The notes beneath the pieces are model-generated. The model was not told the DNA's origin and ran no database searches. It worked only from the letters and a program-made list of their open reading frames with translations. The translations under genes and the position numbers were made by a program. A DNA stretch of 44,804 bases from Deltaproteobacteria bacterium. GTDB lineage: Bacteria > Desulfobacterota > Desulfobacteria > Desulfobacterales > B30-G6. Of the stretch, positions 9,561 to 44,804 are shown one piece after another. Location: assembly GCA_022340465.1 (NCBI GenBank), contig JAJDNW010000051.1:1-44804 (forward strand), written 5' to 3'. The number at the start of each line of letters is the position of its first letter. Positions within the stretch are counted from its first letter, which is position 1.

Positions 9561-9600
9561 GCACGCCTCTACTAATAACAAATTTTCATTCTATTAATTT

Positions 9601-9720
9601 GAACCGAGATAGCGAGCGCATTCCCTGCAGCTTGCTGCAGGGTAAGCGAGCGAATCATAATCGATAGAATTCCTTGCGGTGAAGATTCCCCTTACGCTTG
9701 CTGCGGGGAGTGTTCAATAT
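9601..9720 (+). repeat. 120-bp dispersed repeat, copy 1
   Basis: Spans GAACCGAGATAGCG at the left to GAGTGTTCAATAT at the right. Internally it has a near-perfect palindrome CCCTGCAGCTTGCTGCAGGG (9623-9642) and a degenerate second one (CCCC...GGGG, about 9688-9708). Its reverse complement recurs at 40612-40731 with about four differences, and its left 42 bp recur at 44715-44756. It fills most of the gap between the PP-loop gene and nth. No coding potential. Confidence 0.9.
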
Positions 9721-27382: not shown

Positions 27383-29716
27383 TTATTCGATAGGGGTATT
27401 CTCGACCAGATTCCAGATGCCGCAGGGGCACGCGCCGGCGCAGAAACCGCACCCGATGCACCGTGACGCATCCACCACATATTCGAACGCATCCCCGCTC
27501 TTTTCCATGCGGCTGATGGCCGACTCCGGGCACATGGCCACGCATATGCCGCAATCCCTGCACTGGCCGCAGGAAGCGCACTGGCTGCCGCACTGGCTCA
27601 GGTCCTCGTAAGCCGTTATCCTGGGATCGTAGTAGGCCATGGAAACCCGTTCAATATCGATGACCTGTTTCCGGGTGGCGGACGGCCTTTTCCCTTCCAG
27701 GATGTCCCCGATGGCGGCGGCGGCCTTGCGACCGGCGCCGATGGCATCGGTCAGCAGCCCCGGGCGGACGATGTCGCCTACGGCAAACACCTTGGGGTTG
27801 GTTGTCTGAAAATACGCATCTACCTTCACATGGCCCTTTTCCACGGCCACGTCCTCGGGAAGAAATGCCAAATCGGGCACATCGCCTATGGAAACAACGA
27901 CGGTATCCGCCGGAATCAGTTCACCGCCTTCCAGGACGACTCCCTTGGCGGTGATTTTGCTGGTGAACACGGGCCATCTGAACTCGGCGCCGGCGGCTTC
28001 CGCGTCCTCGCGCTCTTTGCCGAAGGAGGCCGGCGTCTGGACATCCAGAAGGGTCAGTTTATCGGCTCCCAGCCTGGCGGCTTCGGTAGCAACGTCGCAG
28101 CCGACATTGCCGGCACCGATGACAACCACACGGGTGCCGACCTTTAGCGTTCCCTTTTTGGCATTGCTTAAAAATTCGAGAGCGCCGATCATGCGCTCCT
28201 TGCCCGGGATGTTAAGCAGCCTGGGTTTCCGGGCGCCTGCCGCTATGACCACCGCATCGAAATCCGTTATCAGCGCCTCGGTGTCTTTTGCGGTCAGCCG
28301 TTGCTGCAGATGAACATGCGGTATGACCTCCTGAATGCGTTCCAGCTCTTTTGCCACAACCGCTTTTGGAATACGGCTGTTTGGTATCACCGAAGCGACC
28401 TTTCCGCCGAGAACCGCGGTAGCGTCGTAAACGACGGCCTCGATCCCCTGAAGCCGCAGCTGCCATGCCATGGAGATGCCGGCCGGCCCACCGCCGACCA
28501 CCGCCACCCTTTTACCGTTCAATGCGGGAAATTCCGGCAGGTTGGCATCGATGCTGGCCTTTCCCAGTCCGGTTATGTCCACCGGCGTCATGAAAGCCGA
28601 CTGTTTGGTGCACGACTGCATGCAAAGATTGGGACACAGGTACCCGCAAACGGTCGCCGGAAACGGCGTGTAGGCCAGGGCCATATCCACCGCTTCGTCG
28701 ACACGGCCCTCCCGCACCATGCGCCAGCGCGCCTGCACGGGTATTCCGGTGGGGCAGGCATCCTGACAGGGCGATATATATTGGCCGTTTTCCCAGACAG
28801 GCACCTGGCGGCGCAGGTCCCCACGGGTGATCACGGGAATCGGGCTGCGGTCGACATCGGTCAGATCCCCCACCAGCCCCCCCACACCGAGGGCCCGGTC
28901 CCACACATCCTGCCTGAATTGCGCCATGGAACGCCTTTGCGCCGAGGTCTTCTCGTGGGGCAGACGGGCCCGCAGCAACTGCCACTCGTCGCGGCGACCC
29001 ATCTCCTGCTTGAGTTCGATGCGACCGATCTTTTCCAGAAACAACTGCATGTTTTCCTGAAGCCAGGACCAGTCCCCGTCCCCGATGGGGACCATCTTGG
29101 CATCCGTCTGGCTGAACCCGCCGTGTGGGCCTTTTAGAAAAACCTTGCCTCCGACCATGCCCACCAGGGGGCGGTACCCGAGAACATTCCCGGCATTCTG
29201 GGGGGCGTGACCGCAGATGACGGCTATGCCGCCGGCCATGAACTCTCCGAAGTAGTCCCCGGCAGACCCCAGCACCCACAGTTCGGGGGGAGCAAAACGG
29301 GGGTTGTGTTTGGTCATGGTCATGCCGCGGGCGCCGATATTGCCGGCCACGTAAATCTTGCCCTGGGCCATGGCATTGGCCACGCCATTGGAGGCATGAC
29401 CGTGAACGGTGATCTCGGCGCCGGTGTTGAGCCAGCCCACATCGTCCGAAGCCGGTCCCATGACCTTGATGTGGGTGTTGGGATACCCCATGGACCCCAC
29501 CCGTTGTCCGGGGTGTCCCTGGATGTTCACATGGACGGCTTCTCCGTCGCTGCACCGCAACCGCCCGCCGATACCGTGCTGCCCGAAGGCATGCACCATC
29601 AGGGAACGCTTGCCCTCCCTGACGGCCTCCTGGATATGCTCTTCCAAAACACGGGATGCGATGCGCCGGCCGTGGTGCTGACCTGAAAACACGTGTGGTT
29701 GGTCGTCGGAATTCAT
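27383..29716 (-). CDS. Glutamate synthase: GXGXG domain fused to FAD-dependent oxidoreductase and ferredoxin
   Basis: 777 aa. The N-terminal third (about 20-200) is a GXGXG beta-helix as found at the C terminus of bacterial GltB (GSMGYPNTHIKV, ITVHGHASNGVANAM, GSAGDYFGEFMAGG). Next comes the GltD-like double-cluster helical domain (CQDACPTGIPV, about 315; CGYLCPNLCMQSC), the FAD/NAD fold (VAVVGGGPAGISMAWQL, about 405; VVVIGAGNVGCDVA), and two C-terminal [4Fe-4S] sites (CGQCRDCGICVAMCP; CIGCGFCAGACPCG, 715-770). It would pass NAD(P)H or ferredoxin electrons to the FMN core encoded upstream. GGAG lies 8 nt before the ATG. Third gene of a three-gene glutamate synthase unit. Confidence 0.88.
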   Translation of the reverse strand: MNSDDQPHVFSGQHHGRRIASRVLEEHIQEAVREGKRSLMVHAFGQHGIGGRLRCSDGEAVHVNIQGHPGQRVGSMGYPNTHIKVMGPASDDVGWLNTGAEITVHGHASNGVANAMAQGKIYVAGNIGARGMTMTKHNPRFAPPELWVLGSAGDYFGEFMAGGIAVICGHAPQNAGNVLGYRPLVGMVGGKVFLKGPHGGFSQTDAKMVPIGDGDWSWLQENMQLFLEKIGRIELKQEMGRRDEWQLLRARLPHEKTSAQRRSMAQFRQDVWDRALGVGGLVGDLTDVDRSPIPVITRGDLRRQVPVWENGQYISPCQDACPTGIPVQARWRMVREGRVDEAVDMALAYTPFPATVCGYLCPNLCMQSCTKQSAFMTPVDITGLGKASIDANLPEFPALNGKRVAVVGGGPAGISMAWQLRLQGIEAVVYDATAVLGGKVASVIPNSRIPKAVVAKELERIQEVIPHVHLQQRLTAKDTEALITDFDAVVIAAGARKPRLLNIPGKERMIGALEFLSNAKKGTLKVGTRVVVIGAGNVGCDVATEAARLGADKLTLLDVQTPASFGKEREDAEAAGAEFRWPVFTSKITAKGVVLEGGELIPADTVVVSIGDVPDLAFLPEDVAVEKGHVKVDAYFQTTNPKVFAVGDIVRPGLLTDAIGAGRKAAAAIGDILEGKRPSATRKQVIDIERVSMAYYDPRITAYEDLSQCGSQCASCGQCRDCGICVAMCPESAISRMEKSGDAFEYVVDASRCIGCGFCAGACPCGIWNLVENTPIE

Positions 29717-29821
29717 TTTTAATCTCCGCCTATTCGATCCTACCGTTTACCGGTTATCCGGCGATTGCTGTCGCCCATTTGCGGCAAGCCGGAAAATATA
29801 CTAGAATACCCTTCGTGGTCT

Positions 29822-31456
29822 TTAAACAACATAGCGAATACTCAGCCTTTCTGCCGCAGCCTGGTCGGATATGCCCAAGGCATCCGACATCCCGATGGGC
29901 AGCGATGTGGACCTTCCCAGCGGTGCCACTATTTTTTTCAGTTCGGTGTCGAATCCCAGGAAAAGATCGACGACCCTCTCCGCCACCTTCTCGGTGTCCA
30001 GCCGTCGATACAGCCGGGGGTCCTGCGACGTGATGCCCTTGGGACAGTGCCCGATGTTGCAGATGTTGCAGCGGTCGGATTCGCTCCCCAGACACCCGGC
30101 GGCCGCCTGCATGACATACTTTCCAATCTGCACCCCGCTGGCTCCCAGCATGATCAGGGCTGCGGCGTTGGCGGCCAGGTTGCCGCTCTTTCCGATGCCT
30201 CCTCCGGCGAACAGGGGAATCTCGTTCTGCTTGCCAACCGTCACCAGGTTCAGATAGCTGTCCCGGATGTTGCTGGCTATGGGATGCCCCATGTGGTTCA
30301 TGGACACGTTGTAGGCCGCGCCGGTGCCGCCGTCCTCTCCGTCGATGGCCAAACCGCCGGCATACGGATTGCGGGCCAGGTTGTTCAACACCGCCAGGGC
30401 GGTGGAGGTTCCCGAAATTTTAGGATAGACCGGCACGCGAAACCCCCAGGCCATGGACATGGAGATGATCATTTTGGCCACGGACTCCTCGATGGAGTAT
30501 TTTGTCTGGTGCGTCGGCGGGCTGGGAAGGCTGACCCCGGGGGGGACGCCCCTGATGGCGGCAATCAGTTTGTTCACCTTGTGCCACATGAGGAGTCCGC
30601 CGTCGCCCGGTTTCGCCCCCTGCCCGTACTTGATCTCGATGGCGCAGGGGTCTTCCTGCATGTCCGGAATGGCCTGAATGATCTCGTCCCAGCCGAAGTA
30701 ACCGCTGGCAATCTGCAGGATCACGTACTTTAAAAAGCGCGACCGCAGCAGCCGCGGGGGGCAGCCGCCCTCACCGGTACTGATGCGCACCGGCATGCCC
30801 AGCTCCTCGTTGAGATACGCCACCCCCATCTGCAACCCTTCCCACATGTTGGGAGAAAGCGCCCCGAAGGACATGCCGCCTATGATCAACGGATAGATCT
30901 CCCTGATAGGCGGAATCCAGCCGTTTTCGCTTAAAAATTTGAGGTTCTCCTCCGGTGGCAGCACCCTTCCCAGGAGGGTTTTCAATTCGAATTCATGCCT
31001 TCCGGCATCCAGTGCCGGGTCGGTCAACATGGAAATGCGGATAAACTTCAGCTGGTCCAGGATGCCGCCGGCGACATTCCGCCGCCCCCCCCGGCGACGC
31101 GGCTGTCCGCCCCTGTTCACGTGGTAGCGCAACTTGTCGGGCTCATCGCTGCGCAGGGGCATAATGGCGTCGTTGGGGCACACCATGCTGCACATGGCGC
31201 ATCCGACACAGGCATACGCGGGCTCGGTCAGCTGCCTGATGCCGTGATACACGTCGAACGTATTCGTCGACGCCCCCGCGGGCTCCAGCGTCGTTTTCAC
31301 ACGGCGTTTTCGAAACGCCGCCAACTCGATTGCGTTGACCGGGCAGACAGCGGTACACTTGCCGCACAGCGTGCATTTGTCCTTGCTCCACTGAATCTGC
31401 CAGGGCAGATCCTTGACGCTCAATGAGGAAGGGGCAATGGGTCTGTCTGGGTACAT
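29822..31456 (-). CDS. Glutamate synthase FMN core subunit with N-terminal ferredoxin domain
   Basis: 544 aa. Two [4Fe-4S] motifs (CTLCGKCTAVCP near 30; CVGCAMCSMVCP near 85) precede the FMN/2-oxoglutarate barrel: IGGMSFGALSPNMW, STGEGGCPPRL, IKYGQGAKPGDGG, IDGEDGGTGAA, FAGGGIGKSGN, and the iron-sulfur loop CNICNIGHCPKG near 462. This is the archaeal-type arrangement in which amidotransferase and GXGXG domains are separate proteins. The ATG 31454-31456 is favoured by AGGAGGT directly upstream; the frame extends 35 codons further without homology and overlaps the amidotransferase gene. Actual overlap is 37 nt. Confidence 0.9.
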   Translation of the reverse strand: MYPDRPIAPSSLSVKDLPWQIQWSKDKCTLCGKCTAVCPVNAIELAAFRKRRVKTTLEPAGASTNTFDVYHGIRQLTEPAYACVGCAMCSMVCPNDAIMPLRSDEPDKLRYHVNRGGQPRRRGGRRNVAGGILDQLKFIRISMLTDPALDAGRHEFELKTLLGRVLPPEENLKFLSENGWIPPIREIYPLIIGGMSFGALSPNMWEGLQMGVAYLNEELGMPVRISTGEGGCPPRLLRSRFLKYVILQIASGYFGWDEIIQAIPDMQEDPCAIEIKYGQGAKPGDGGLLMWHKVNKLIAAIRGVPPGVSLPSPPTHQTKYSIEESVAKMIISMSMAWGFRVPVYPKISGTSTALAVLNNLARNPYAGGLAIDGEDGGTGAAYNVSMNHMGHPIASNIRDSYLNLVTVGKQNEIPLFAGGGIGKSGNLAANAAALIMLGASGVQIGKYVMQAAAGCLGSESDRCNICNIGHCPKGITSQDPRLYRRLDTEKVAERVVDLFLGFDTELKKIVAPLGRSTSLPIGMSDALGISDQAAAERLSIRYVV

Positions 31457-32550
31457 ATCTCGACCTCCTGTCGCTCCGGGCCCACGATGACCGTGTCCAG
31501 GTGCATGGGTTGAAAATCTTTTTCTCTGTCCCGGTCCGGGATAACGGCGTCCAGCCCGCATATTTCGGAGGAAAAGGCGTATCTGCCGGGACGCCCGCCC
31601 ACCACGCCGGGACGCAGTTTTTTCCGGTCCTGAAGCATGAACAGCGAGTGATCCGGCAGGCAGCCGATGACACAGTTGGGGCCGTCGATAATCAAGCGGC
31701 GACAGGATTGCTTCAGGTGCGTCAACAGGGGGGCATCGGGGCGGCCCGCCAGGTCACTGTCCTGCAGCGGCGTGATGATGTGCTTGTAAGCCTCGATACC
31801 CAGGCCGAGCTTGGTGGCCGCGTAGTGCAGGATATGCGTGAACACTTCCGAATCCGACTGGTAGCCGGTGTATCCTTCGAAATTGCGTGACAGCAGAAAT
31901 TCCTTGATGGGCGTAAAAGCCGTATTTTCGCCGTTGGTCATGGTGGCATAGCCTTGGATAAAGAAGGGATGGCAGGCGTAAAGGTTGATGGCATAGTTGG
32001 TGTTCTGACGCCCCTGCGCCATGATTACCCGCGCTTCCAGTTCCTTTCTGTCCAGCTTGAGGTAGTCGGCCACCGTCATAGGGTCGCCGATCTCCTTGAG
32101 CATAATCACGTCCGGCCAGAAAGAGTAGACGATCATGTCTCCCTTTTCCTCGCCCATGGCCCGGAGTTGCAGACGGATGCTCAGCAATTTTTCCTGCAGA
32201 TCCTCCCACTGGAGGTCCTCCCACTCTTCCGGGTATTCGTAGGCCCGGATCAGGTAGACGTCACGTTTGGGAATATCCAGCGGCCGTTTTTTTGGCACCT
32301 TGATGGTAATCTTGTACTTGGTCATGAATCCGATATCCATCATGAAGGCATCCAGGCGCTTCAATCCACTGTCAGTAAAAATACCGGACAGAATGGGGGC
32401 GTCCTTGATGTCCTCGAAAGGGCCGCCCAAATCTCGCAGGAAGAGACCCACGCCGGAACCGTCGTGGCCCTCCCGCATGACATCCATGGCCTGCATGGCA
32501 ACCATCGGAGAAACAGGTATTTCACTAGACATTGCAAATAAGCGGCACAT
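31420..32550 (-). CDS. Glutamate synthase amidotransferase subunit (class II GATase)
   Basis: 376 aa. It begins MCRLFAMSS, so the N-terminal nucleophile is Cys2 after methionine removal. Other Ntn-amidotransferase features are EGHDGSGVG, AQGRQNTNYAINLYACHPF and MTNGENTAF, where TNGEN stands at the usual HNGE position. It releases ammonia from glutamine for the FMN core encoded next. AAGGAG precedes the ATG. First gene of the unit; long 5' region with a hairpin (32624-32645). Confidence 0.88.
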   Translation of the reverse strand: MCRLFAMSSEIPVSPMVAMQAMDVMREGHDGSGVGLFLRDLGGPFEDIKDAPILSGIFTDSGLKRLDAFMMDIGFMTKYKITIKVPKKRPLDIPKRDVYLIRAYEYPEEWEDLQWEDLQEKLLSIRLQLRAMGEEKGDMIVYSFWPDVIMLKEIGDPMTVADYLKLDRKELEARVIMAQGRQNTNYAINLYACHPFFIQGYATMTNGENTAFTPIKEFLLSRNFEGYTGYQSDSEVFTHILHYAATKLGLGIEAYKHIITPLQDSDLAGRPDAPLLTHLKQSCRRLIIDGPNCVIGCLPDHSLFMLQDRKKLRPGVVGGRPGRYAFSSEICGLDAVIPDRDREKDFQPMHLDTVIVGPERQEVEICTQTDPLPLPH

Positions 32551-35977: not shown

Positions 35978-36022
35978 CTAGCCCGGATGGCCGTGTGCTC
36001 CCAAAGGAAACCGGAATAAACC

Positions 36023-38686
36023 CTACTCGTGTCTCCCTGGCTGCCAATCCTCGCCGTACTCTTCGACTTCCGTGGAAGCGGCGGCCAACACCGCCATGCC
36101 CGCCGGCTGAACCTTGCGGTAGACCCGGCTGTAATCCAGCCTCGTGCCGTTGACCGTCAAGAGGTCCTTTTCGATGGAAATGCCGAAAAGCCTTTCGTTT
36201 TCCTCAAGGTAGGGAAGAATCAGCGCCCAGTCCTCCGGCGACAGGTCCACGATTTCTCCTCCGTTGAGCTGTTCGTCCACCACCTGTTGCCGGGGGTCCC
36301 GAATATAAATGGCTCCGCCGGATGCCAGGGAAAACAGGTTGGAGCCCGGGTAGGGGGTCGCCTGCTCGACACACCCGCCGCCGTTGTCGAAGGAAAGCCC
36401 ATTGAGCACCACGAATCCACCGTTGTCCAGAGGATTCCCGGCCATGAAGCTTTCCGCCAGGTAGTCCAGGCAGGTGCCGTTGATCACTACCTTGGGACGC
36501 CCCACCGCGTTGATCAGCGGGCGGCCGGCGGCGTTGCCCATGACGTATACCTCCCCGCCCTTGGCCCCGTACATGAAGGTCTGGCCCACGTCGCCGTAGA
36601 TGACCAGTTTTCCCTGTTTCAAGATCTGTCCCACCTGGTCCTGGGCGTTGCCGTGGACGAAAAGCTGCAGGCCGTCGATGCCGGAGGCCAGGTAATCGCC
36701 GGAGCTGTCGTACACGTCGATGCGCACATCCCGGGTGTCCTTGGACAACCCGCAGCCGGTAAAACGCTGTCCCCTGTAGCCGAAGCAGATGAACTCCCGC
36801 CACCCGAGTCCGTAGGCGTCGCAGATCAACCGCGCGTCGCATGCGTCCCCTTCGGGGGGAAAGGCCCCGGCGTTCAGCACCAGCGTACGCTCTTCGCTCT
36901 GCGGTCCGCGCAGGTCATCCCGCAACGCCCGATTTATGTAAGCGTACCTGCCGGCAGGTGCCCCGCCGATGCCCGGCGTGGCCTCGAAGATCCCGGTCAG
37001 CGCTTCCCTGATCAGGTGAAGAACCGAACTGCGCTTTTTCGACCCCGTGCCGTAGCGGCGGTCGTTCAGGCAGGTCAGCACCTCGATGGCGTTGGCCTTG
37101 GCTCTGTCGTTTTTCACCGCGCCCGCCCCCAGCACATCGCAAAAGTGATGCAGCGCGTTGAAATCCCAGGCCGGCATGTGCTGTAAAGCGACGTCTCGGA
37201 CCGTTTCCCACTCGTTCTCCAGGCTTTCCTGGATGAGGGCTTCGATTGCGTCCGCAGCGTCGGATGCGCCGGCGTCGATGGCGGGATTGTAATGCCGCTG
37301 CCCGGCCGGAACGGTCACGACCTTGCCGAACTTGTCCGTGCACGACAGCACCTTGCCGCCTCTGCCGTCGGGATGGTCCTGCACCGAAAAAATAAACGCC
37401 CCCCCGTCGGAGGCACTGCCTCCCCGTGCATTCCAGTAGACGTCCGCCACCGGGCAGAAGCGGCTGTCTTCGGCCGCCAGACTCTGCAGCGTGGCGTCGA
37501 TGGCCTGTTTTTCAGAACACACCAGGCCGATCTGCACCTCGCCCTCCTGCAGGGCGAAAACCTGGGGGCGCAGCATGGAGGTGTCGGTGATGCCCAGCAA
37601 CTGGAAGCAGTTCTCGTAGGGATTGTTGCGGGCGATGATAAACAGCCAGGGGCCGTCCGGCGATGCCTGGATGTGGGCCGACTGCAGGTAGCGGTAGATC
37701 TGCCGCTTCTCCGGAGGCAGAAGGTCGAAATCATGCTCGGTCGTGGGCGCCATGGCCTCGATAATGTACTCCAAGGGGTATTCGAAGGTGCGGTTCCACA
37801 GGTCGAACAGCTGGATGGAGACTTCCGTGTCCGTGAGAAACTGGGGGTATATGCGGTACTGCTTCAGATACTCGCTGACGGCATGGTAGTTGGCGAAATC
37901 GCCGTTGTGGACCAGGGCTTCGTCCAGCCCGCTGAACGGGTGCGCTCCGCCCGGGTGCCAGACGCGCCCCTTGGTCGGATAACGCTGGTGCGCTATCCAG
38001 CCGTGTGCCCTGAAATCCTCCAGCCGGTAGTACTGGACCACCTTTTCGGCATAGCCCACGATTTTAAGAATCATCAGGTTCCGCGCATGGGAGAGCACGA
38101 AGGCCTGCTGTTCGCCGAGAGAGGCATAGAATGTCTGGTTGAGGTCGGCGGAGTTGCGGTAGATGAATTCGTCCTCCGCCCGTTCCCGTGTCAGGTACTG
38201 CAGGCGGTTGTCCGCGGCGAAACGGTCGAGGACGGCCGGTTTCACCCGGACGAAATAGCGCCAGACATCCGGCGGGCGCACGTCGAGGCCCTCAATGTCC
38301 CGGTAGTCATCGACGGTCGGCAGGGGTTCAGCCTTGTGGATGTCGAGAAAGGGCGCGATGTTCCGCTCCTCGACGGCCTTCCTGCATTCGGGGTTCAACA
38401 GCGCCACCTGCAGCATGTAGTGACTGTCCAGGACTTCCTGACTCACCCCCAAATCGTCTGCCGACAGCCCGACCGCTGCAATGCCGCCGCCCTTCCCGTT
38501 GCCGCGATTGTGCATCTGGATGGAAGGTTCGTAAATGTGGCGGCCTTTTATCGGTATCGAACTGATGAACCCGGTTACGCCGCACCCCCCCTCCTCGGCC
38601 TGCTTTTTCCGGGCGCCACTGCCGGAGGCCTGTCTGGGTCTCGAAGCGACGATGCTGTCGATTAAACTTTTCCTAGTTGTTGGCAT
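36023..38686 (-). CDS. Glutamate-synthase-type amidotransferase fused to GXGXG domain, no FMN core
   Basis: 887 aa. GGCGVTGF sets the Ntn nucleophile at Cys35, implying a 34-residue propeptide. Further class II glutaminase motifs are WIAHQRYPTKGRVW (Arg), LVHNGDFANYH and LTDTEVSIQLFDLW, so the glutaminase looks intact. After a long middle region comes a GXGXG beta-helix (VHGNAQDQVGQIL, YGDVGQTFMYGAKGG, ESFMAGNPLDNGG). The FMN barrel normally between these parts is missing and is encoded by the upstream genes. The start at 38684-38686 (MPTTRKSL) has a GGAAAAAAAG upstream; the frame extends 20 codons more. Last gene of the mvhD-metVF cluster. Confidence 0.85.
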   Translation of the reverse strand: MPTTRKSLIDSIVASRPRQASGSGARKKQAEEGGCGVTGFISSIPIKGRHIYEPSIQMHNRGNGKGGGIAAVGLSADDLGVSQEVLDSHYMLQVALLNPECRKAVEERNIAPFLDIHKAEPLPTVDDYRDIEGLDVRPPDVWRYFVRVKPAVLDRFAADNRLQYLTRERAEDEFIYRNSADLNQTFYASLGEQQAFVLSHARNLMILKIVGYAEKVVQYYRLEDFRAHGWIAHQRYPTKGRVWHPGGAHPFSGLDEALVHNGDFANYHAVSEYLKQYRIYPQFLTDTEVSIQLFDLWNRTFEYPLEYIIEAMAPTTEHDFDLLPPEKRQIYRYLQSAHIQASPDGPWLFIIARNNPYENCFQLLGITDTSMLRPQVFALQEGEVQIGLVCSEKQAIDATLQSLAAEDSRFCPVADVYWNARGGSASDGGAFIFSVQDHPDGRGGKVLSCTDKFGKVVTVPAGQRHYNPAIDAGASDAADAIEALIQESLENEWETVRDVALQHMPAWDFNALHHFCDVLGAGAVKNDRAKANAIEVLTCLNDRRYGTGSKKRSSVLHLIREALTGIFEATPGIGGAPAGRYAYINRALRDDLRGPQSEERTLVLNAGAFPPEGDACDARLICDAYGLGWREFICFGYRGQRFTGCGLSKDTRDVRIDVYDSSGDYLASGIDGLQLFVHGNAQDQVGQILKQGKLVIYGDVGQTFMYGAKGGEVYVMGNAAGRPLINAVGRPKVVINGTCLDYLAESFMAGNPLDNGGFVVLNGLSFDNGGGCVEQATPYPGSNLFSLASGGAIYIRDPRQQVVDEQLNGGEIVDLSPEDWALILPYLEENERLFGISIEKDLLTVNGTRLDYSRVYRKVQPAGMAVLAAASTEVEEYGEDWQPGRHE

Positions 38687-38728
38687 CTTTTTTTCCGGAC
38701 ACAAGGATGAATGTTTATCTGAAACACC

Positions 38729-38872
38729 AAACCACAAAGGCACCAAGAGGCACCAAGATTAATTCTTCCTGAGTTCAATTCAGGTTTTTAATCACGAAAG
38801 CACGAAAGGGCAAAAACACGAAAAACAGCCATGATCGTTTCGTGCTTTCAGCATTTCGTGTTTTCGTGAATT
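38729..38872. repeat. CACAAAG/CACGAAA repeats with long imperfect inverted repeat
   Basis: The gap 38687-39002 holds ACAAAGGCACCAAGAGGCACC (about 38736-38756 region), a CCTGA/TCAGG hairpin followed by TTTTT on the plus strand (38768-38789), and two facing arms built of CACGAAA units (about 38791-38826 and 38835-38871). The arms can pair over some 30 bp with mismatches. No coding frame was found here. Confidence 0.6.
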
Positions 38873-39002
38873 ATTGAAGCATTTTTCCCTTTACCCAAAG
38901 CATACGATAAATGCCAGCGAATCGAATGGCACGAAGTAAATGACCATTGAATTTTAAACGATAATGTCACAGTATGGCCAGCCTAGTAGGTATTGTCTTT
39001 TC

Positions 39003-40556
39003 TTAAATTATCGTATTCCCGGTTGGCGCCGGCTGATAGGTGGTCCTTTCTTCCGCTTCGAGATAATCGAGGTGGACCAGAAGATCCGATCGCCCGGTCA
39101 GTTCGCGCATGCTGCGCATGCCCAGGCACCGCAGCAGTTCGCACCATTGCTTGCGCCAGGCCATGTACATGTTGACCAGCCGCTGCTCGGCGTACGCCTC
39201 GGATATCATCTGCCCCAGTTCGTGGTCTGTCGAGGCAATCCCCCGGGCACATCCCCGGCCGCTCTCGCAATTGCCGCAGCGCACGCACTCGAGAGCCACC
39301 AGGTCGGCCGTGCCGATGACCACACCGTCCGCCCCCAGGGCCATAGCCTTGGCCGTGTCCATGGCGTTGCGGATGCCGCCGCTGGCGATGAGGCACACCT
39401 TCTCCCGAACCCCTTCCGCCTTTAAGAAATTGTGCACTTTGGGGATGGCGTACTCGATGGGCATGGCGATGTTTTTCTTGGCGATGTCCGGCGCCGCGCC
39501 GGTTCCCCCGTAGCTGCCGTCGATGTGCACGATGTGGGCGCCCGCGTAGTAGCTGCCCACGGCAACCATGTCGACATCGGTGGGTGTGGACACCTTCACC
39601 GATATGAGCCCCCTGGGGTTGATCTCCTTGATCCAGTCCACGTGTTTCTTGTGATCCTCCACCGAGTAGACGCTGTGGAACGGAAAGGGGGAAAACAGGG
39701 AATTCCCCACAACCGTCTCGCGCATGGCCGCCACTTCCGGCGTGACCTTGTCGCCCAAAAGGTGCCCGCCAAGGCCCGGCTTGGCCCCCTGGGCATACTT
39801 GAACTCTATTACCGGTGCATGCAGGATGGTTTCTTCGCGCACGCCGAACAGGCCAGTGGCCACCTGGGTGATCACGTGATCCTTGTAGGGAACGAACGCT
39901 TCGGGATACCCGCCCTCGCCCGTGCAGGTCAGGGAGTTCAGCGTCCTGGCGGCCCTGGCCCTTCCCACCAGCGCGTTGAGCGCCATGGACCCGTAGGACA
40001 TGCCGCCGCCGTAGCATGGCAGGGAAAGCGTTTTCGCAGGCCGCCCGTCTCCCCTCTTGTTGAGGGTCAGGCGCGTGTCGATAGCCGCGTCGTCGATATC
40101 GAGATACGCCCCGGGATCGAAGTGCCTGAAGCGGATCTTGTCGAAGCCCCCGCCGGAATTGCCCACATTGTATTCGAGGTCCACCAGCGGCAGGCTGCCG
40201 GTTTCGGCCATTTCCCAGTGGGCGATGAGCATCTCGTCGGTCCAGCGGTAGTCGCCCAGGGTTTCGAGAACGGGATTGAGGCGCAGGGTCAGGGCCCCCT
40301 CCGGGCAGCGGTCGATGCAGTAGTAGTCGTTCTTTCTGCACGCAAATCCGATGCACTTGTGTTCACGGGGGCGCAGGGTCCTGTTGTAGACCTCATACCT
40401 GGGATGCACGCCATAGGGACACAATTCCGCGCACAGGCCGCAGGAAACGCACTTGGCGAGGCTGCGCCGGATGCTGTACTTGCCGATGGTGTTCCTGAAC
40501 CTGGACGGCGCTTCGATAACCTCCGGAAGGGCTGTTTCGTGATTCTGATTGTTCAT
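39003..40556 (-). CDS. Glutamate synthase FMN core protein with ferredoxin domain
   Basis: 517 aa. The N terminus has CVSCGLCAELCP (about 37-48) and a second cysteine set (CIGFACRKNDYYCIDRCPEG, about 73-92), then the FMN barrel: GGGMSYGSMALNALVG, TGEGGYPEAF, FKYAQGAKPGLGGHL (about 259), VHIDGSYGGTGAAP (about 350), IASGGIRNAMDTAKAM, and CVRCGNCESGRGC (about 423-435) for the inner cluster. All FMN and substrate motifs are present, so it should be a working core. It lies between its eroded paralogue and the amidotransferase-GXGXG fusion. The ribosome-binding site is weak. Confidence 0.88.
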   Translation of the reverse strand: MNNQNHETALPEVIEAPSRFRNTIGKYSIRRSLAKCVSCGLCAELCPYGVHPRYEVYNRTLRPREHKCIGFACRKNDYYCIDRCPEGALTLRLNPVLETLGDYRWTDEMLIAHWEMAETGSLPLVDLEYNVGNSGGGFDKIRFRHFDPGAYLDIDDAAIDTRLTLNKRGDGRPAKTLSLPCYGGGMSYGSMALNALVGRARAARTLNSLTCTGEGGYPEAFVPYKDHVITQVATGLFGVREETILHAPVIEFKYAQGAKPGLGGHLLGDKVTPEVAAMRETVVGNSLFSPFPFHSVYSVEDHKKHVDWIKEINPRGLISVKVSTPTDVDMVAVGSYYAGAHIVHIDGSYGGTGAAPDIAKKNIAMPIEYAIPKVHNFLKAEGVREKVCLIASGGIRNAMDTAKAMALGADGVVIGTADLVALECVRCGNCESGRGCARGIASTDHELGQMISEAYAEQRLVNMYMAWRKQWCELLRCLGMRSMRELTGRSDLLVHLDYLEAEERTTYQPAPTGNTII

Positions 40557-40611
40557 TTGCTATTCCGCTGTGAAACAACTTTCATCAATATTAACCATTC
40601 ACGTCTTCCAA

Positions 40612-40731
40612 ATATTGAACACTCCCCGCATCAAGCTTAAGGGGAATCTTCACCGTAAGGAATTCTATCAATTATGATTCGCTCGCTTACCCTGCAGCAA
40701 GCTGCAGGGAATGCGCTCGCTATCTCGGTTC
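40612..40731 (-). repeat. 120-bp dispersed repeat, copy 2 (inverted)
   Basis: Reverse complement of 9601-9720 with about four substitutions over 120 bp. Ends match exactly (ATATTGAACACTC at left, ATCTCGGTTC at right). It contains the CCCTGCAG...CTGCAGGG palindrome. It sits between the two FMN-core paralogue genes. Confidence 0.9.
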
Positions 40732-40768
40732 AACAATCAATATCCGAGGCCCAGTGATCACGCTTTCA

Positions 40769-40784
40769 CAGGGCTAAAGCCCTG
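40769..40784. repeat. REP-like palindrome CAGGGC-TAAA-GCCCTG
   Basis: A perfect 6-bp stem with a TAAA loop, followed by GGCTACAC. I remember this motif as a common dispersed intergenic palindrome in many bacteria; identification with a named family would need a search. Confidence 0.55.
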
Positions 40785-40832
40785 GGCTACACACAGCGCC
40801 AGCGACCCGGACATTGGCTATTAGTCGTTCAA

Positions 40833-40864
40833 TATGGGTCATTCTCCTTATGGGTCATTCTCCT
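40833..40864. repeat. Exact 16-bp tandem duplication carrying a Shine-Dalgarno-like sequence
   Basis: TATGGGTCATTCTCCT occurs twice back to back. On the minus strand each unit reads AAGGAGAATGACC, a ribosome-binding site with an ATG, placed right after the stop of the gene ending at 40867. It may be the former start region of the next gene, now separated by the inserted repeats. Confidence 0.7.
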
Positions 40865-40866
40865 TT

Positions 40867-42276
40867 TCACGGGCCCGGGACGACACGCTCGCCGAAGATG
40901 GGCCCGAAATTTTCCTTTTCCAGATCCTCGAACCACATGGAGCGTCCGATTTCACCCCGAAGCCGCCTGGCTTCGCGGATGCCCATGGCCCCCATCATCT
41001 CGATGATCTGACTGTGCCACGCCCCGATGAGGTTGACGATGCGCTGGCTGCCCCAGTCCCGATCCACGCCGGGTTCCAGGGCGACGGGACACGGCAGCTC
41101 CTCCCGACAGCGCCCGCACAGGCGGCACTCCAGGGCCAGCATCAGAACGACATCCGCTTCCACCGCGTCGGCACCGCACAGCATGGCCTTGACCACATGT
41201 TCGGCCATGGAGATGCCTCCCGAGAAAACCAGGTTGACCTGCTGGCGCAGGCAGTCGTCCACCAGCTTCAGATGGACTTCCCTGATCAGGTCTTTGAGGA
41301 ATCTCGGATGGTCCGCATGAATCTCCCGGCCGTGATCATCGGCAAAAAGGGTGATGCTGTCGATGCCGGCACGCGTCAGGCTTACCGCCCTCTCGGCTGC
41401 GCCGGCGTCCAGAGGAAGCCTGGCAAGCACCGTTATGTCCGGATTGAGGCGCCGTATATCTGTTAAAACGGTTTCCTTGCCCGGTCTTATCGCTATCTCG
41501 ACGGCCCGGCTGCGGCGGATGACCGCTTCAAACAGTGCCATTTTTTCAGCCTCGAAGGAAGGGATCAGAAAATCCGCGTAAGGCATCAGTGCCGGCGTCA
41601 CGTCATCCGCCGCCACGAACATGAGGGTGCCGAGACGTTCGGCCGCCGCCGCGGCGGCCAGACGGATGGACTCGTTCTGAACGAGATCTGCGGGCAGCCG
41701 CAGCAAAAGGGGCAGCGGCACCTCCAGGATTGTGGGCAGTTCGGACGCAATCGTGAGATCGTCGTTGAACGTCAAGGGGGTCACCCGCCTGGAAAGCTCG
41801 ACGCAGGTGTTGATGTACTCCCGGCCGTGGATCCCGTCCCTGGTCGGACGCACGATTTCGGACATGTCCGTCCACATGGCGTCGAACCCGGGTGCCGCAA
41901 AGGGGCCCCGGTATCCTGCGCCGGATACGGGAATACTCCCGGTGTGCGCCTGATACCACAGGCGATGAATGAGCTCCGCCCGCCAGTACGCGTCTCCCAG
42001 GGTCCTGTACTCCGGATTGATCGCCCGCGAAAAAATACCCCGCGTACACTCCTGAATACACCGGAAGCAGCTTTGGCAGGTGTACAGGTACTCGGGCTCC
42101 TCCATGGCGGCCATGTGCAGCACGTTTTCCTTGAAGATGTTGTAAACACACCGTTTCTTCACGCATTGACGGCAGCTTCCGGCGCAGTCCTCCCGAAATT
42201 CCACCGTGGCGTATTTGCCGATGGGATGAAACCGCGGCTCGGTCTTTTGAACGGATATGTGGTATTTTTTGGGCAT
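40867..42276 (-). CDS. Degenerate glutamate-synthase-like iron-sulfur protein
   Basis: 469 aa, paralogous to the neighbour at 39003-40556. The N terminus holds two cysteine groups (CAGSCRQCVKKRC, about 30-42; CQSCFRCIQEC, about 68-78). The barrel half retains LVFSGGISMAEHVVKAMLCGADAV and a C-terminal LECRLCGRCREELPC. The tail after it, IVNLIGAWHSQIIEMMGAMG, parallels the neighbour's. However, the GAKPG-GG and GGTGAAP motifs that hold FMN and substrate are absent. Likely a structural or electron-relay subunit, not an independent enzyme. It follows metF by about 97 bp; the ribosome-binding site is weak. Confidence 0.75.
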   Translation of the reverse strand: MPKKYHISVQKTEPRFHPIGKYATVEFREDCAGSCRQCVKKRCVYNIFKENVLHMAAMEEPEYLYTCQSCFRCIQECTRGIFSRAINPEYRTLGDAYWRAELIHRLWYQAHTGSIPVSGAGYRGPFAAPGFDAMWTDMSEIVRPTRDGIHGREYINTCVELSRRVTPLTFNDDLTIASELPTILEVPLPLLLRLPADLVQNESIRLAAAAAAERLGTLMFVAADDVTPALMPYADFLIPSFEAEKMALFEAVIRRSRAVEIAIRPGKETVLTDIRRLNPDITVLARLPLDAGAAERAVSLTRAGIDSITLFADDHGREIHADHPRFLKDLIREVHLKLVDDCLRQQVNLVFSGGISMAEHVVKAMLCGADAVEADVVLMLALECRLCGRCREELPCPVALEPGVDRDWGSQRIVNLIGAWHSQIIEMMGAMGIREARRLRGEIGRSMWFEDLEKENFGPIFGERVVPGP

Positions 42277-42303
42277 GATCTATTCCATGGTTTTTAATCT
42301 CAA

Positions 42304-42361
42304 CCACAAGAGCACAAAGGCAGATAATTTTCGACACGGATTGCACGAATTACGCGGATTT
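42304..42361. repeat. Short imperfect repeats (ACACGGATT type) between metF and the next gene
   Basis: CCACAAGAGCACAAAGGCAG (42304-42323) is followed by CACGGATT-GCACGAATT-ACGCGGATT, three imperfect 9-bp units (42335-42360). Same style as the repeats near 27316 and 38729. Confidence 0.5.
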
Positions 42362-42373
42362 CTATCAAAAAAT

Positions 42374-43300
42374 CTATGCAGGTCTCGGTAATAGACCCGC
42401 TTTTTCGACAATCTCGGCGACGATTTCCTCCCACTCGATGGCCATGATGTGGATGCCGTGAACCCCCTCTGTTTCCCTCAGTTCGGCGATGGTCTCGAGA
42501 CAGATCTTCACGCCTTCGGCGGGGGCTTCCTTTTTGGGCACGCCGGCCATGCGCCGGATGACCGCTTCCGGGATATCCATCCCCGCCACCCGCTCGTTCA
42601 TGTAGGTGGCCATACCGGCCGACTTCAGCGGCGTGACCCCGGCCAGGATGTGAACCCTCTCGGTCAGGCCCTCCTCCCGGGCCAGTCCGATCCACTCTTT
42701 GAAACGGTCGAGGTTGTAAACGCACTGCGTCTGGACGAAATCAGCACCGGCATCGATTTTCTTGGCCAGCCGGATCACCCGGTATTCGAACGGGTCAGCG
42801 AAAGGGTTGGCGGCGGCGCCAATGAACATATCGGGTGCTTCGTCGAGTTCGAAACCACTCATGTCACGGCCGGTGTCGCGCATCTCCCTCACCGCCCTCG
42901 CCAGGTGCATGGAGTCGATGTCGAACACGTTCAGGGCGTCCGGCTGACTGCCGAAGGACTGGTGGTCCCCGCTCAGGCAGAGAATGTTCCTGATCCCCAA
43001 GGAGTAGGCGCCCATAATGTCAGACTGCAAGGCGATACGGTTGCGGTCGCGCGTCACCATCTGCACGACCGGCTCCAACCCCATGTTCAAAAGATGTGTA
43101 CAGGCGGCGATACTGGACATGCGCACAATAGCGGTCTGGTTGTCGGTCACGTTCAGGGCGTCCACCGCATCCTGCAGCAGTCCCCCTTTTTGGACGATGA
43201 CCTCGCGGTTGCCTCCGCGGGGGGGGCCGCACTCGGCTGTGACCGCAAATTCACCGGCCCTGAGCAGCCGCTCCAACCTGCTTGCGGGTTCCGTTTTCAT
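42374..43300 (-). CDS. metF: Methylenetetrahydrofolate reductase
   Basis: 308-aa FAD barrel enzyme interconverting 5,10-methylene- and 5-methyl-tetrahydrofolate, used in methionine synthesis and in the methyl branch of the Wood-Ljungdahl pathway. Motifs: FAVTAECGPPRGGN at the N terminus with the catalytic Glu, DALNVTDNQTAIVRMSS, HLLNMGLEPVVQMVTRDRN, NILCLSGDHQ, and GADFVQTQCVYNL. It resembles the short form that works with MetV. Its ATG overlaps the metV stop by 4 nt. Confidence 0.93.
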   Translation of the reverse strand: MKTEPASRLERLLRAGEFAVTAECGPPRGGNREVIVQKGGLLQDAVDALNVTDNQTAIVRMSSIAACTHLLNMGLEPVVQMVTRDRNRIALQSDIMGAYSLGIRNILCLSGDHQSFGSQPDALNVFDIDSMHLARAVREMRDTGRDMSGFELDEAPDMFIGAAANPFADPFEYRVIRLAKKIDAGADFVQTQCVYNLDRFKEWIGLAREEGLTERVHILAGVTPLKSAGMATYMNERVAGMDIPEAVIRRMAGVPKKEAPAEGVKICLETIAELRETEGVHGIHIMAIEWEEIVAEIVEKAGLLPRPA

Positions 43301-43965
43301 ATGACGTGATCCTCTCTGACCAGTTTTCGGGGTCCCCCGGAAGTGCTTGTGGACCAGTTTTTAGGCGGCACATAGGCGCGCAGATTGTCCAGCTGCCCCA
43401 GAATTTTCAAGCGTTCGATAATCATCTGCCAGGCACAGTCGGTATCGGGGTTTACCTCGCACTTGCCCCCCTGAGATCCACCGCAGGGGCCGTTAAGCAG
43501 CTTTTTTGCACACCGCGTTACCGGGCAAACGGCCCCGAACAGGGCCAGTTTGCAGTTTCCGCAACCCGAACATTCTTCGGTAAAAAGCCCCTGCTTTTCC
43601 AGAACGCCGATAAAGGTCGTGTTGACGCCGGGCAATACCGGGCTGGTCACGAACCTGCGGGCAATGGCCTGCACCCCGGCACCGCAGGCCAGGGAAAGCA
43701 CCGCCTCGCATCGTGAGATGGCTTGCGCCGCCTCCTGGATGAACTCGTCCTCGCACTGTCTTTCCACGGTCAGCTCTTCCACCTCGATTTCCCGTCCCTC
43801 CTTGCGCGATGCCAGCCTGAGGGCCGATGCCAGAACCGCCGTTTCGTCTTCACCGCCGGCAAAGCAGGTCTTCACGCACGTCCCGCACCCGAGAACCAGC
43901 AGTTTTTTGTACGGCGCGACCATCGTCTTGATCTCTTGGATGGGTTTTTGTTCTCCTACAATCAT
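43297..43965 (-). CDS. metV: MetV-like iron-sulfur/zinc partner of MetF (MTHFR C-terminal family)
   Basis: 222 aa. The N-terminal half (KKLLVLGCGTCVKTCFAGG) contains a cysteine trio; the C-terminal half carries CSGCGNCKLALFGAVCPVTRC and LNGPCGGSQGGKCEVN, the signature of the MTHFR_C/MetV family. MetV binds the clusters that deliver electrons to MetF in acetogens. The 4-nt overlap with metF and the order metV-metF support a complex. The ATG is at 43963-43965 with GGAGA upstream. Confidence 0.9.
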   Translation of the reverse strand: MIVGEQKPIQEIKTMVAPYKKLLVLGCGTCVKTCFAGGEDETAVLASALRLASRKEGREIEVEELTVERQCEDEFIQEAAQAISRCEAVLSLACGAGVQAIARRFVTSPVLPGVNTTFIGVLEKQGLFTEECSGCGNCKLALFGAVCPVTRCAKKLLNGPCGGSQGGKCEVNPDTDCAWQMIIERLKILGQLDNLRAYVPPKNWSTSTSGGPRKLVREDHVI

Positions 43966-43982
43966 GGGCTGTCTCCACGTAG

Positions 43983-44008
43983 ATGCCCGGTCCCATGGGG
44001 CCCGGCAT
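43983..44008. promoter_or_regulatory. Strong hairpin between mvhD and metV
   Basis: ATGCCCGGTCCCA and TGGGGCCCGGCAT fold back over 26 nt with a single mismatch and one G-T pair. It ends 18 nt before the metV start, in the 168-bp gap; it may be a processing or stabilising element setting the mvhD to metVF ratio. No T-run. Confidence 0.45.
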
Positions 44009-44133
44009 TGGTCTCACCCTGGAAGGGTGTTGTTCAGGATTTCGGATTTGGTGCTTGGAATTTTATTCCCCCTATTACCGGCCCAGCCAAATTTCTCTGG
44101 CCCGGCCCGCCGAAGCAGGATTTCAATAGGCTG

Positions 44134-44550
44134 TTAAACCGCCGCCGACCTGGCCGGACTCGGGCCCAGCTCCTTCAAGCCGGACACCACTTTCTCGACA
44201 ATCTCCATCACCAGGTCTTCATCGCCGGGTTTGACGTTGAACAACCCCAGGCGCCGCCCGTCCAGACCGATGTCGTCCAGCAGGTTGCGCACAAAGGCTG
44301 CGCGCTTCTTAGCCCGGATGTTCCCCTCGATGAAGCGGCATTGCCCTTCGGGACACACCAGAACGGCCACGCCATCAGCATCCGCTTCGAAGGCACGCAG
44401 CAGAAAAACGTCCTTAACCATGCTGGAACAGGGCATTTTTACAAAAGATACGTCCGCCAGCGGTTTGATGCGTCCTAGGAAGGCATTGGTTTCGACAAAA
44501 CTGTTGATACAGTAAAAAACGGTGAGTTTGGGCGTAAAGACCGTCTGCAT
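44134..44550 (-). CDS. mvhD: MvhD-like [2Fe-2S] electron-transfer subunit
   Basis: 138 aa. Members link HdrA-type flavoproteins to hydrogenase, formate dehydrogenase or MetFV. Visible are LTVFYCINSF, VKMPCSSMV, FLLRAFEADADGVAVLVC, CPEGQCRFIEGN and the helix KKRAAFVRNLLDDIGLDGRRL, in MvhD order. The usual second cysteine of the YCxNC motif is Ser here, while the P-C and C-x4-C residues remain. The ATG 44548-44550 is preceded by GAGGTG with 7-nt spacing; a TTG 21 nt upstream is less likely. No hdr genes are visible in the window; what lies to the right is unknown. Confidence 0.85.
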   Translation of the reverse strand: MQTVFTPKLTVFYCINSFVETNAFLGRIKPLADVSFVKMPCSSMVKDVFLLRAFEADADGVAVLVCPEGQCRFIEGNIRAKKRAAFVRNLLDDIGLDGRRLGLFNVKPGDEDLVMEIVEKVVSGLKELGPSPARSAAV

Positions 44551-44634
44551 TTCCGGACACCTCGATGGCAAGGAATGATCTGCACGTTTTCACCTCCCGG
44601 AAGCGCCGTGCTTCACCGGGCAGGTTTAAAAATG

Positions 44635-44663
44635 CGTATACAGGATCGGCACTGGTTTGTCCA
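44635..44663 (-). promoter_or_regulatory. Candidate promoter of the mvhD-metVF unit
   Basis: On the minus strand TGGACA (44658-44663), 17-bp spacer, TATACG (44635-44640). Four to five of six positions match in each box. A start about 80 bp before the mvhD ATG is implied, which would make mvhD the first gene of the unit. Confidence 0.4.
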
Positions 44664-44714
44664 CCTTAATCCCCCCCCGTACCGCTTGTCGATATCGTGC
44701 CCCGATTGACGCTT

Positions 44715-44756
44715 CCCTGCAGCAAGCTGCGGGGAATGCGCTCGTTATCTCGGTTC
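44715..44756 (-). repeat. Partial copy 3 of the dispersed repeat
   Basis: 42 bp matching 40690-40731 with few changes (CAGCAAGCTGC, ATGCGCTCG, TATCTCGGTTC). The other 78 bp of the element are absent. It lies upstream of the mvhD promoter candidate. Confidence 0.8.
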
Positions 44757-44804
44757 GATCAGGGGAAAGAGGGTATTGGCCTGTGGCCGCCGTGTCGCCG
44801 GCCA

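Follow-up and report, generated by a model that had tools for sequence, protein, structure and literature searches.

A six-gene unit of many anaerobes that seems to join a MetVF-type methylene-THF reductase to a glutamate synthase

The window, the whole stretch of DNA that was analysed, is the entire contig C51 of 44,804 nucleotides. Positions 36023-44550 were filled by six genes, all on the minus strand, in the order mvhD-metV-metF-gltX-gltB2-(GATase+GXGXG) (Table 1). The ORF list and the Pfam matches bore out the six-gene, same-strand order given in a preliminary description of this DNA, as well as the 4-nt overlap of metV and metF noted there. The genes are abbreviated below as D (mvhD), V (metV), F (metF), X (gltX), B (gltB2) and G (the GATase-GXGXG fusion). 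The start of mvhD was taken at an ATG, the mechanical ORF beginning at a TTG (44571), and that of G at an internal ATG of an ORF that runs to 38746. MvhD cysteines 14, 41, 66 and 71 were kept in all 21 aligned orthologues and would be enough for one cluster, presumably of the [2Fe-2S] type.

Table 1. Features of the six-gene region, in window coordinates.
Feature	Position	Strand	Evidence
mvhD (FlpD family), Fe-S adapter subunit	44134..44550	-	Pfam FlpD/MvhD 2e-25
metV, Fe-S subunit of MetVF-type methylene-THF reductase	43297..43965	-	Pfam DUF5981 (MetV) 2e-36
metF, FAD subunit of MetVF-type methylene-THF reductase	42374..43300	-	Pfam MTHFR 5.2e-39
gltX, FMN-barrel paralogue of the synthase core	40867..42276	-	Pfam Glu_synthase 1.3e-12, residues 331-433 only
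Dispersed ~120-bp repeat between gltX and gltB2, not an enzyme part	40614..40733	-	
gltB2, ferredoxin domain and intact FMN/2-oxoglutarate synthase core	39003..40556	-	Pfam Glu_synthase 4.3e-87 and Fer4
Class II amidotransferase fused to GXGXG beta-helix	36023..38686	-	Pfam GXGXG 5.5e-14, GATase_6 6.5e-7

Where metF ends, a sequence scan found a terminator-like hairpin, and a promoter-like pair immediately precedes gltX; the two halves could therefore be transcribed separately in this genome. The promoter-like pair that had been proposed upstream of mvhD was not recovered, the promoter scan giving no sigma-70-like pair there; mvhD lies only 254 bp from the window end, and its own upstream side is beyond the window. 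No Rfam match was obtained within 36000-44804. The repeat between gltX and gltB2 belongs to a family of at least 40 copies in the same genome, this one included, each of at least 84 bases and 85-100% identical. A further split glutamate synthase, of the NAD(P)H type, is encoded elsewhere in the window, with a GltD domain in its set (27383-29716); among the six proteins of the unit there was no GltD-type NAD(P)H subunit.

The gltX product had been described as an eroded GltS-like protein. This holds for the FMN motifs, which are lost, but the gene itself is intact: its product belongs to a conserved family roughly 470 residues long, an FMN barrel lacking the catalytic motifs that has kept its Fe-S cysteines. 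Orthologues spanning 444-469 of the 469 residues were found in 22 of 96 genomes, including its own, which rules out a pseudogene, and matches at E <= 1e-40 were present in 103 of 395 genomes of the phylum. The GltX profile matched the GltB2 profile across 408 columns, each protein has eight invariant N-terminal cysteines, and among the variant loci natural gltX-gltB2 fusions were found in eight frames of 973-1069 aa. The predicted structure of GltX (pLDDT 82.3), built from 61 sequences in place of a weak first model (pLDDT 66.4), had GltS synthase domains as its best structural matches. The top match was to residues 788-1183 of 1ea0_A, the FMN/synthase region (Z 25.1, rmsd 3.3, 307 aligned). 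Other FMN barrels followed at Z 21-22, so that it is the sequence profiles and not the fold alone that single out GltS. The idea that GltX is the counterpart of the alpha-GltS central domain was unsupported, as the top structure matches fell on the FMN/synthase region.

In a profile match, GltB2 residues 182-495 aligned with residues 855-1171 of alpha-GltS (E 1.4e-58), and K259, R279, E300 and the cluster cysteines were invariant in 33 sequences. In GltS this lysine and this arginine bind 2-oxoglutarate, and the invariant His265 stands at a position that is glutamine in GltS. C424, C430 and C436 aligned with C1102, C1108 and C1113 of alpha-GltS, and a fourth cysteine, C427, was likewise invariant. 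The amidotransferase has a cysteine nucleophile following a propeptide, and across 82 orthologues the glutaminase motifs GCG (80/82, the nucleophile motif), RYPT (80/82), HNG(D/E) (82/82), TDTE (81/82) and (A/S)HPF (78/82) were preserved. The GXGXG domain scored 52.6 bits against a Pfam cut-off of 32.5. In the broad sense, the predicted class II glutaminase, FMN core, post-barrel cluster cysteines and GXGXG domain together mark a probable glutamate synthase. The central domain PF04898 gave no match in the same genome; in other genomes its hits at the X-B positions were scattered, at about 20-23 bits, one lying just above the 22.8-bit cut-off. Five genomes (G002, G040, G049, G053, G067) had no Glu_synthase hit other than X and B. 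Glutamate dehydrogenase was present in 18 of 22 genomes with X and the window holds the second glutamate synthase, so cells may not depend on the enzyme.

A test set beforehand, whether metVF-mvhD and the two FMN-core paralogues consistently occur together, came out clearly positive. Of 62 loci that remained after deduplication and had sufficient flanking sequence, 45 contained all six genes in the order D-V-F-X-B-G, and the two halves were not found apart in most relatives. Carriers belong to Desulfobacterota and include records of several other phyla, and one of them, Desulfospira joergensenii DSM 10085 (L119), is in culture and has the full cluster. The arrangement is more than chance, for it is seen again in many families and in the records of several phyla.

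Among the 81 loci with upstream DNA, mvhD was upstream in 75. Twelve of the 81 kept mvhD without metVF or metF upstream of gltX: six read D-V-X with no metF between, four read D-X-B-G, and two had V or V-F downstream. Two of the tested genomes with D before X (L140 and L142) gave no MetV match at all; MvhD must therefore at times serve another donor. In all six loci lacking mvhD its place was occupied by a dehydrogenase of the FAD_binding_4 plus 4Fe-4S type, 46-55 bp upstream in L165, L173, L175 and L177 and in a single chain with X-B-G in L158 and L159. A dehydrogenase in the mvhD slot argues that MetVF likewise donates electrons. Nitrogen-assimilation genes flanked 36 of 110 X loci and 0 of 17 HdrA-linked loci, the query genes for this comparison having been chosen post hoc.

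HdrA-MvhD-MetVF clusters distinct from this unit occur in relatives as well. Of 20 further MetV loci retrieved from those relatives, 13 had hdrA directly before mvhD, and in the same genome as the window hdrA-linked metF paralogues lie on contigs C127 and C113. Same-strand upstream hdrA was seen in only two of the 62 loci with enough flank (L161 and L171). Relatives had 1-7 MetV copies, and the cluster MetV is thus not their sole C1 route. In a quick tree of concatenated MetV and MetF, a single clade took in 62 of the 71 linked pairs. A quick tree of MetF alone, which carried a long-branch warning, did not recover that clade and drew L138, L164, L167, L168, L174 and L176 nearer to Hdr-linked rows, with weak support.

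The explanation that fits best, and that we judge evenly balanced between right and wrong, is a genuine glutamate synthase with an MvhD-MetV-MetF input arm and methyl-THF as the likely donor. GltX, GltB2 and the GATase-GXGXG protein would constitute a self-contained glutamate synthase in which the amidotransferase domain hydrolyses glutamine, the ammonia joins 2-oxoglutarate at the FMN site of GltB2, and reduced FMN yields glutamate, as in known GltS. The input arm would stand in for GltD/NADPH or ferredoxin. Within a putative physical complex, electrons would pass through Fe-S clusters from the FAD of MetF to MetV, MvhD, GltX and the GltB2 clusters and on to FMN, the dead FMN barrel of GltX being retained as relay and scaffold. 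The glutamate couple has a potential of about -0.13 V. Available excerpts put the methylene/methyl-THF couple at about -200 mV, too positive for NAD+ reduction by methyl-THF (PMC9430772), and describe the MetF of MetVF enzymes as having no predicted NADH site (PMC8760232). Methyl-tetrahydrofolate, too weak for NAD+ and adequate for glutamate synthesis, would be the likeliest donor, in the predicted net reaction CH3-H4F + Gln + 2-oxoglutarate -> CH2=H4F + 2 Glu. A more ambitious reading, to which we give somewhat less than even credence, is that the unit represents a fifth type of MetVF complex and at once a new type of glutamate synthase, with methyl-THF in place of NAD(P)H, ferredoxin or F420H2 as direct reductant, GltX as built-in relay and an exchangeable arm; if so, X-B-G would be a general glutamate synthase core for different dehydrogenases.

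Electrons might instead come from a donor common to both halves. Hydrogenase, formate dehydrogenase or ferredoxin would feed MetVF and the glutamate synthase alike, possibly by bifurcation, entering at MvhD or at the ferredoxin domains of GltX/GltB2, and MetVF would then reduce methylene-THF. MvhD is a known adapter from hydrogenase or formate dehydrogenase to Hdr (excerpts of PMC6085437) and persists where metVF does not adjoin it, the N-terminal cysteines of GltX and GltB2, eight invariant in each, could receive such electrons, and anaerobes show both C1 directions. However, no hydrogenase or formate dehydrogenase gene was prominent among the recurrent neighbour clusters, inspected through representatives, a second bifurcating flavin is not apparent, and the exchangeable arm of the variants is a dehydrogenase; we regard a common donor as unlikely, though a serious contender. 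It is quite unlikely that the genes are merely co-expressed, a complete, ferredoxin-using glutamate synthase lying in one operon with MetVF-MvhD so that C1 units and nitrogen stay balanced, and exchanging no electrons with it. Nitrogen genes close by, the ferredoxin-type domains of GltB2 and GltX and a metVF that is sometimes absent or downstream would suit that arrangement, but the genes stay contiguous in different phyla, their metVF forming a separate MetVF lineage (the clade of 62 linked pairs among 71), MvhD, a pure electron adapter, is kept in 75 of 81 loci, and the variants put another redox arm in the identical place, twice within one chain.

The preliminary description had offered two interpretations, an electron link between C1 and glutamate metabolism and a GltS-like module serving MetVF as a flavin hub in place of HdrA. 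The link is favoured. For the hub, in which X-B-G would have lost glutamate formation and would act as the flavin/Fe-S centre for C1 reduction, the support is positional: X-B-G adjoins mvhD-metV-metF, next to which hdrA is found in the 13 of 20 MetV loci elsewhere. Yet the residues of glutaminase and synthase are conserved from phylum to phylum, nitrogen-assimilation genes recur next to the unit, X-B-G persists without metVF and is the sole Glu_synthase-domain set of five genomes, and an FAD/Fe-S dehydrogenase can replace the input arm, all of which makes the hub very improbable.

If the favoured electron link between C1 and glutamate metabolism is correct, one-carbon and nitrogen metabolism would be joined in one complex, one-carbon chemistry would send electrons straight to nitrogen assimilation, and NADPH or ferredoxin would be saved in energy-limited cells. 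Which partner exchanges electrons with MetVF enzymes is a matter of debate (excerpts of PMC8760232), and a dedicated glutamate synthase would be the answer for one branch. The existence of a cultivated bearer, D. joergensenii, makes the idea directly testable. No description of a link between MetVF and a GltS core was found in open-licence PubMed Central papers as far as their excerpts extend, including those of PMC9012536, PMC2702500, PMC5736913, PMC7325909, PMC6085437, PMC7117923, PMC8097209, PMC9430772, PMC8760232 and PMC12054007.

Like GltBD and the ferredoxin-dependent GltS, the unit combines a glutaminase, an FMN core with cluster cysteines and a GXGXG beta-helix. Unlike them, its genes are split and re-partitioned, it has no GltD and its genome no PF04898, a dead FMN-barrel paralogue is added, and MvhD-MetVF takes the input position. 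N-methylglutamate synthase (MgsABC / GlxBCD) has its GATase, GXGXG and FMN-core parts as separate genes, and the Mgs genes adjoin those of N-methylglutamate dehydrogenase; here GATase and GXGXG are fused and GltX is added, differences drawn from the description of the Mgs set only. Archaeal F420-dependent glutamate synthases, with an FrhB-type subunit, are a precedent for another redox subunit on a split synthase (excerpts of PMC9012536), although the input subunit differs, and no FrhB appeared among the neighbour clusters that were inspected. HdrL and type III HdrA with a GltD domain also tie an Hdr/MvhD system to a glutamate synthase part, but, as far as the excerpts tell, that part is the NAD(P)H subunit GltD and not the glutamate-forming core (PMC2702500, PMC12054007). 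None of the four listed MetVF/MTHFR types matches the unit. The type IV MTHFR HdrCBA-MvhD-MetVF of Moorella thermoacetica and Sporomusa ovata likewise has MvhD, MetV and MetF encoded together, with electrons presumably moving between them and a flavin/Fe-S module (excerpts of PMC9430772, PMC8760232). In contrast to that enzyme, HdrA-linked clusters are separate here, in the same genome and in relatives, and the glutamate synthase formed by GltX, GltB2 and the GATase-GXGXG protein stands in place of the Hdr part.

The six genes share the minus strand in the order of the preliminary description, which also correctly gave a 4-nt overlap between metV and metF. The window is the whole of contig C51 (one of 162 in this 4.39 Mb genome), whose sequence upstream of mvhD ends at 44804. 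In the mvhD-metV gap, a stretch of about 55 bp (43979-44034) recurs in diverged form at two other genomic sites, one on contig C2 and one on C70 (82%).

Features of the contig, with the gene letters used in the text
Feature	Coordinates	Strand	Remark
mvhD (D)	44134-44550	minus	1st in transcription order
metV (V)	43297-43965	minus	2nd in transcription order
metF (F)	42374-43300	minus	3rd in transcription order
gltX, GltS-like Fe-S protein (X)	40867-42276	minus	4th in transcription order
gltB2, FMN/synthase core (B)	39003-40556	minus	5th in transcription order
Amidotransferase-GXGXG fusion (G)	36023-38686	minus	6th in transcription order
Second split glutamate synthase with GltD domain	27383-31561, possibly to 32550
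Second synthase, FMN core with ferredoxin domain	29822-31561
Second synthase, GXGXG-GltD fusion	27383-29716
Dispersed element, about 120 bp	40614-40733 and 9599-9720		also at loci L004-L008 and L203-L216

The 122 X loci fetched represented 109 distinct X sequences, 62 of them with at least 2.6 kb upstream and at least 4.2 kb downstream. Same-strand D-V-F-X-B-G was found in 45 of these 62, bearing out the proposed co-occurrence of metVF-mvhD with both FMN-core paralogues. Among the 81 loci with 2.6 kb upstream, D-V-F-X was found in 60 and D in 75; the remaining 21, in a scan to which an absent and a strongly diverged gene look alike, comprised D-V-X without metF in between (6), D-X-B-G (4), D-F-X-B (1), D-X-B-G followed by V or V-F (2), V-F-D-X-B-G with upstream hdrA (2) and X-B-G without D (6). 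Unrelated genes separated V and X in two of the four D-V-X loci read. Eight frames (973-1069 aa) encoded X and B as one fused protein, and one of these was read whole (L162:5559-8483). In three Omnitrophota and Armatimonadota records (L142, L143, L147), a diverged metF (37-40%) lies immediately upstream of gltX, and metV was not detected beside it.

GltX had been described as eroded. The regions surrounding the FMN and 2-oxoglutarate motifs of its barrel are deleted or altered, but the gene is not decaying: GltX is a conserved family. Orthologues spanning 444-469 of the 469 residues were found in 22 of 96 genomes, this one included (any match, 31 of 96). Matches at E <= 1e-40 occurred in 103 of 395 genomes sampled from the same phylum, and matches at E <= 1e-60 in only 6 of 251, two of them partial, from the phylum of a Chloroflexota record (L146). 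A scan of named genomes gave at least 558 confirmed relatives among at least 588 stretches. The best 80 of these relatives were mostly MAGs, with record titles, the source of the taxonomy and liable to error for MAGs, naming Desulfobacterales or Deltaproteobacteria, Chloroflexi/Dehalococcoidia, Nitrospiria, Omnitrophota, Armatimonadota, Latescibacterota and Poribacteria. Across 61 sequences, eight N-terminal cysteines were invariant and C384, C387, C390 and C396 were conserved at 90% or more. GltX and GltB2 profiles aligned across 408 columns, and the top structural matches of the predicted GltX model (pLDDT 82.3, pTM 0.84) were to the synthase barrel of glutamate synthase (ranks 1-7, Z 22.5-25.1).

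The X-B-G core has the appearance of a functional glutamate synthase. Of 82 G proteins, 78 to 82 retained the glutaminase motifs, and an alignment of 33 GltB2 sequences showed K259, R279, E300 and the cluster cysteines in every one. Nitrogen-assimilation or glutamine-use genes (glnA, GSIII, glnB, glnD, glnE, amtB, carA, carB, guaA, nadE; each type verified by Pfam on one representative) lay near 36 of 110 X loci, whereas none of the 17 Hdr-linked loci had one nearby (Fisher p = 0.003). With long stretches only, the counts were 22 of 48 and 0 of 9 (p = 0.009). The comparison leans toward X in that the query genes were chosen among recurrent X neighbours and the X stretches were longer, the window counting with its full 44.8 kb. 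In five genomes (G002, G040, G049, G053, G067), X and B were the only Glu_synthase-domain matches. The X-B-G enzyme need not be essential, since 18 of 22 X genomes also have glutamate dehydrogenase and the window holds another split glutamate synthase, with carA and carB after it. ORF 31420-32550, for which a Pfam match was not found, might at a guess be the amidotransferase of this second set.

Transcription of the unit as a single message is not assured in this genome, because the transcript could be split by a terminator-like hairpin that spans the metF stop (42400-42378) and by a promoter-like pair directly before gltX (42303-42275). In addition, gltX and gltB2 are parted here by a dispersed repeat, whereas the gap at this junction is 11-62 bp in most relatives of the same order. 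The scan returned 7 promoter-like sites (3.0 +/- 1.9 in shuffles) and 12 terminator-like sites (8.7 +/- 3.6). The repeat is MITE-like, with sharp ends, short terminal inverted repeats (TTGAAC/GTTCAA), a stable predicted fold (z -3.4) and at least 40 genomic copies of at least 84 bases at 85-100% identity; an Rfam search of 36000-44804, this element included, gave no matches. By eye, a stretch just upstream of mvhD (~44752-44695) resembles part of it.

Genomes with X also have parallel clusters that carry hdrA. Among 20 other MetV places chosen from a longer list, hdrA was present in 15, directly before mvhD-metV in 13 and after metV-metF in 2; this genome itself has two hdrA-type clusters (L009, L010). 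A quick tree built from 88 MetV+MetF pairs (71 GltS-linked, 15 Hdr-linked) placed 62 of the GltS-linked and none of the Hdr-linked pairs in one clade (SH-aLRT 97), and the remaining nine GltS-linked pairs split over two groups. Given this scatter, and a MetF-only tree in which long branches meet and the 62-pair clade was not recovered, MetVF may have been recruited repeatedly.

MvhD and MetVF would occupy the electron-input position of the X-B-G synthase. Known glutamate synthases receive electrons through GltD from NADPH, or from ferredoxin (PMC8097209), and F420-dependent forms are proposed for archaea (PMC9012536). Wherever mvhD is missing, in six loci altogether, an FAD-linked dehydrogenase that has a 4Fe-4S domain takes its place, which argues that MvhD-MetVF likewise acts as an electron-donor arm. 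Four loci (L165, L173, L175, L177) encode it separately, as a protein of 615-630 aa, with 46-55 bp between the end of its gene and the downstream X. The L165 and L173 proteins contain FAD_binding_4, FAD-oxidase_C and Fer4_8 by Pfam, and the L165 protein shares 86% identity with that of L175 and 67% with that of L177. In NCBIfam, the L173 protein was nearest to glycolate oxidase GlcD/GlcF, with scores far under the cut-offs. In L158 and L159 the dehydrogenase stands at the N-terminus of one long chain (2528 or 2536 aa), in which 4Fe-4S, Glu_synthase, GATase_6 and GXGXG domains follow.

The glutamate couple lies at about -0.13 V. The methylene/methyl-THF couple is placed at -200 mV (PMC9430772). 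Electrons would run downhill from methyl-THF into the formation of glutamate, and the opposite reaction, methylene-THF reduction by glutamate, would not be expected. Because of this direction, and because MetF of MetVF enzymes is described as lacking a predicted NADH site (PMC8760232), methyl-THF is the favoured reductant. The main rival is a shared-donor hub, in which MvhD or the ferredoxin domains would feed both MetVF and the glutamate synthase from another donor. A strict methyl-THF role is weakened by loci that keep mvhD without upstream metVF, and by the L140 and L142 genomes, which gave no MetV matches.

No description of a MetVF-glutamate synthase cluster was found in searches of open-licence PubMed Central papers. 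The unit differs from GltBD, since it is without GltD and PF04898 has no match in the genome. Nor does it match any of the four acetogen MTHFR types listed in PMC8760232, because here a glutamate synthase stands in for the Hdr part.
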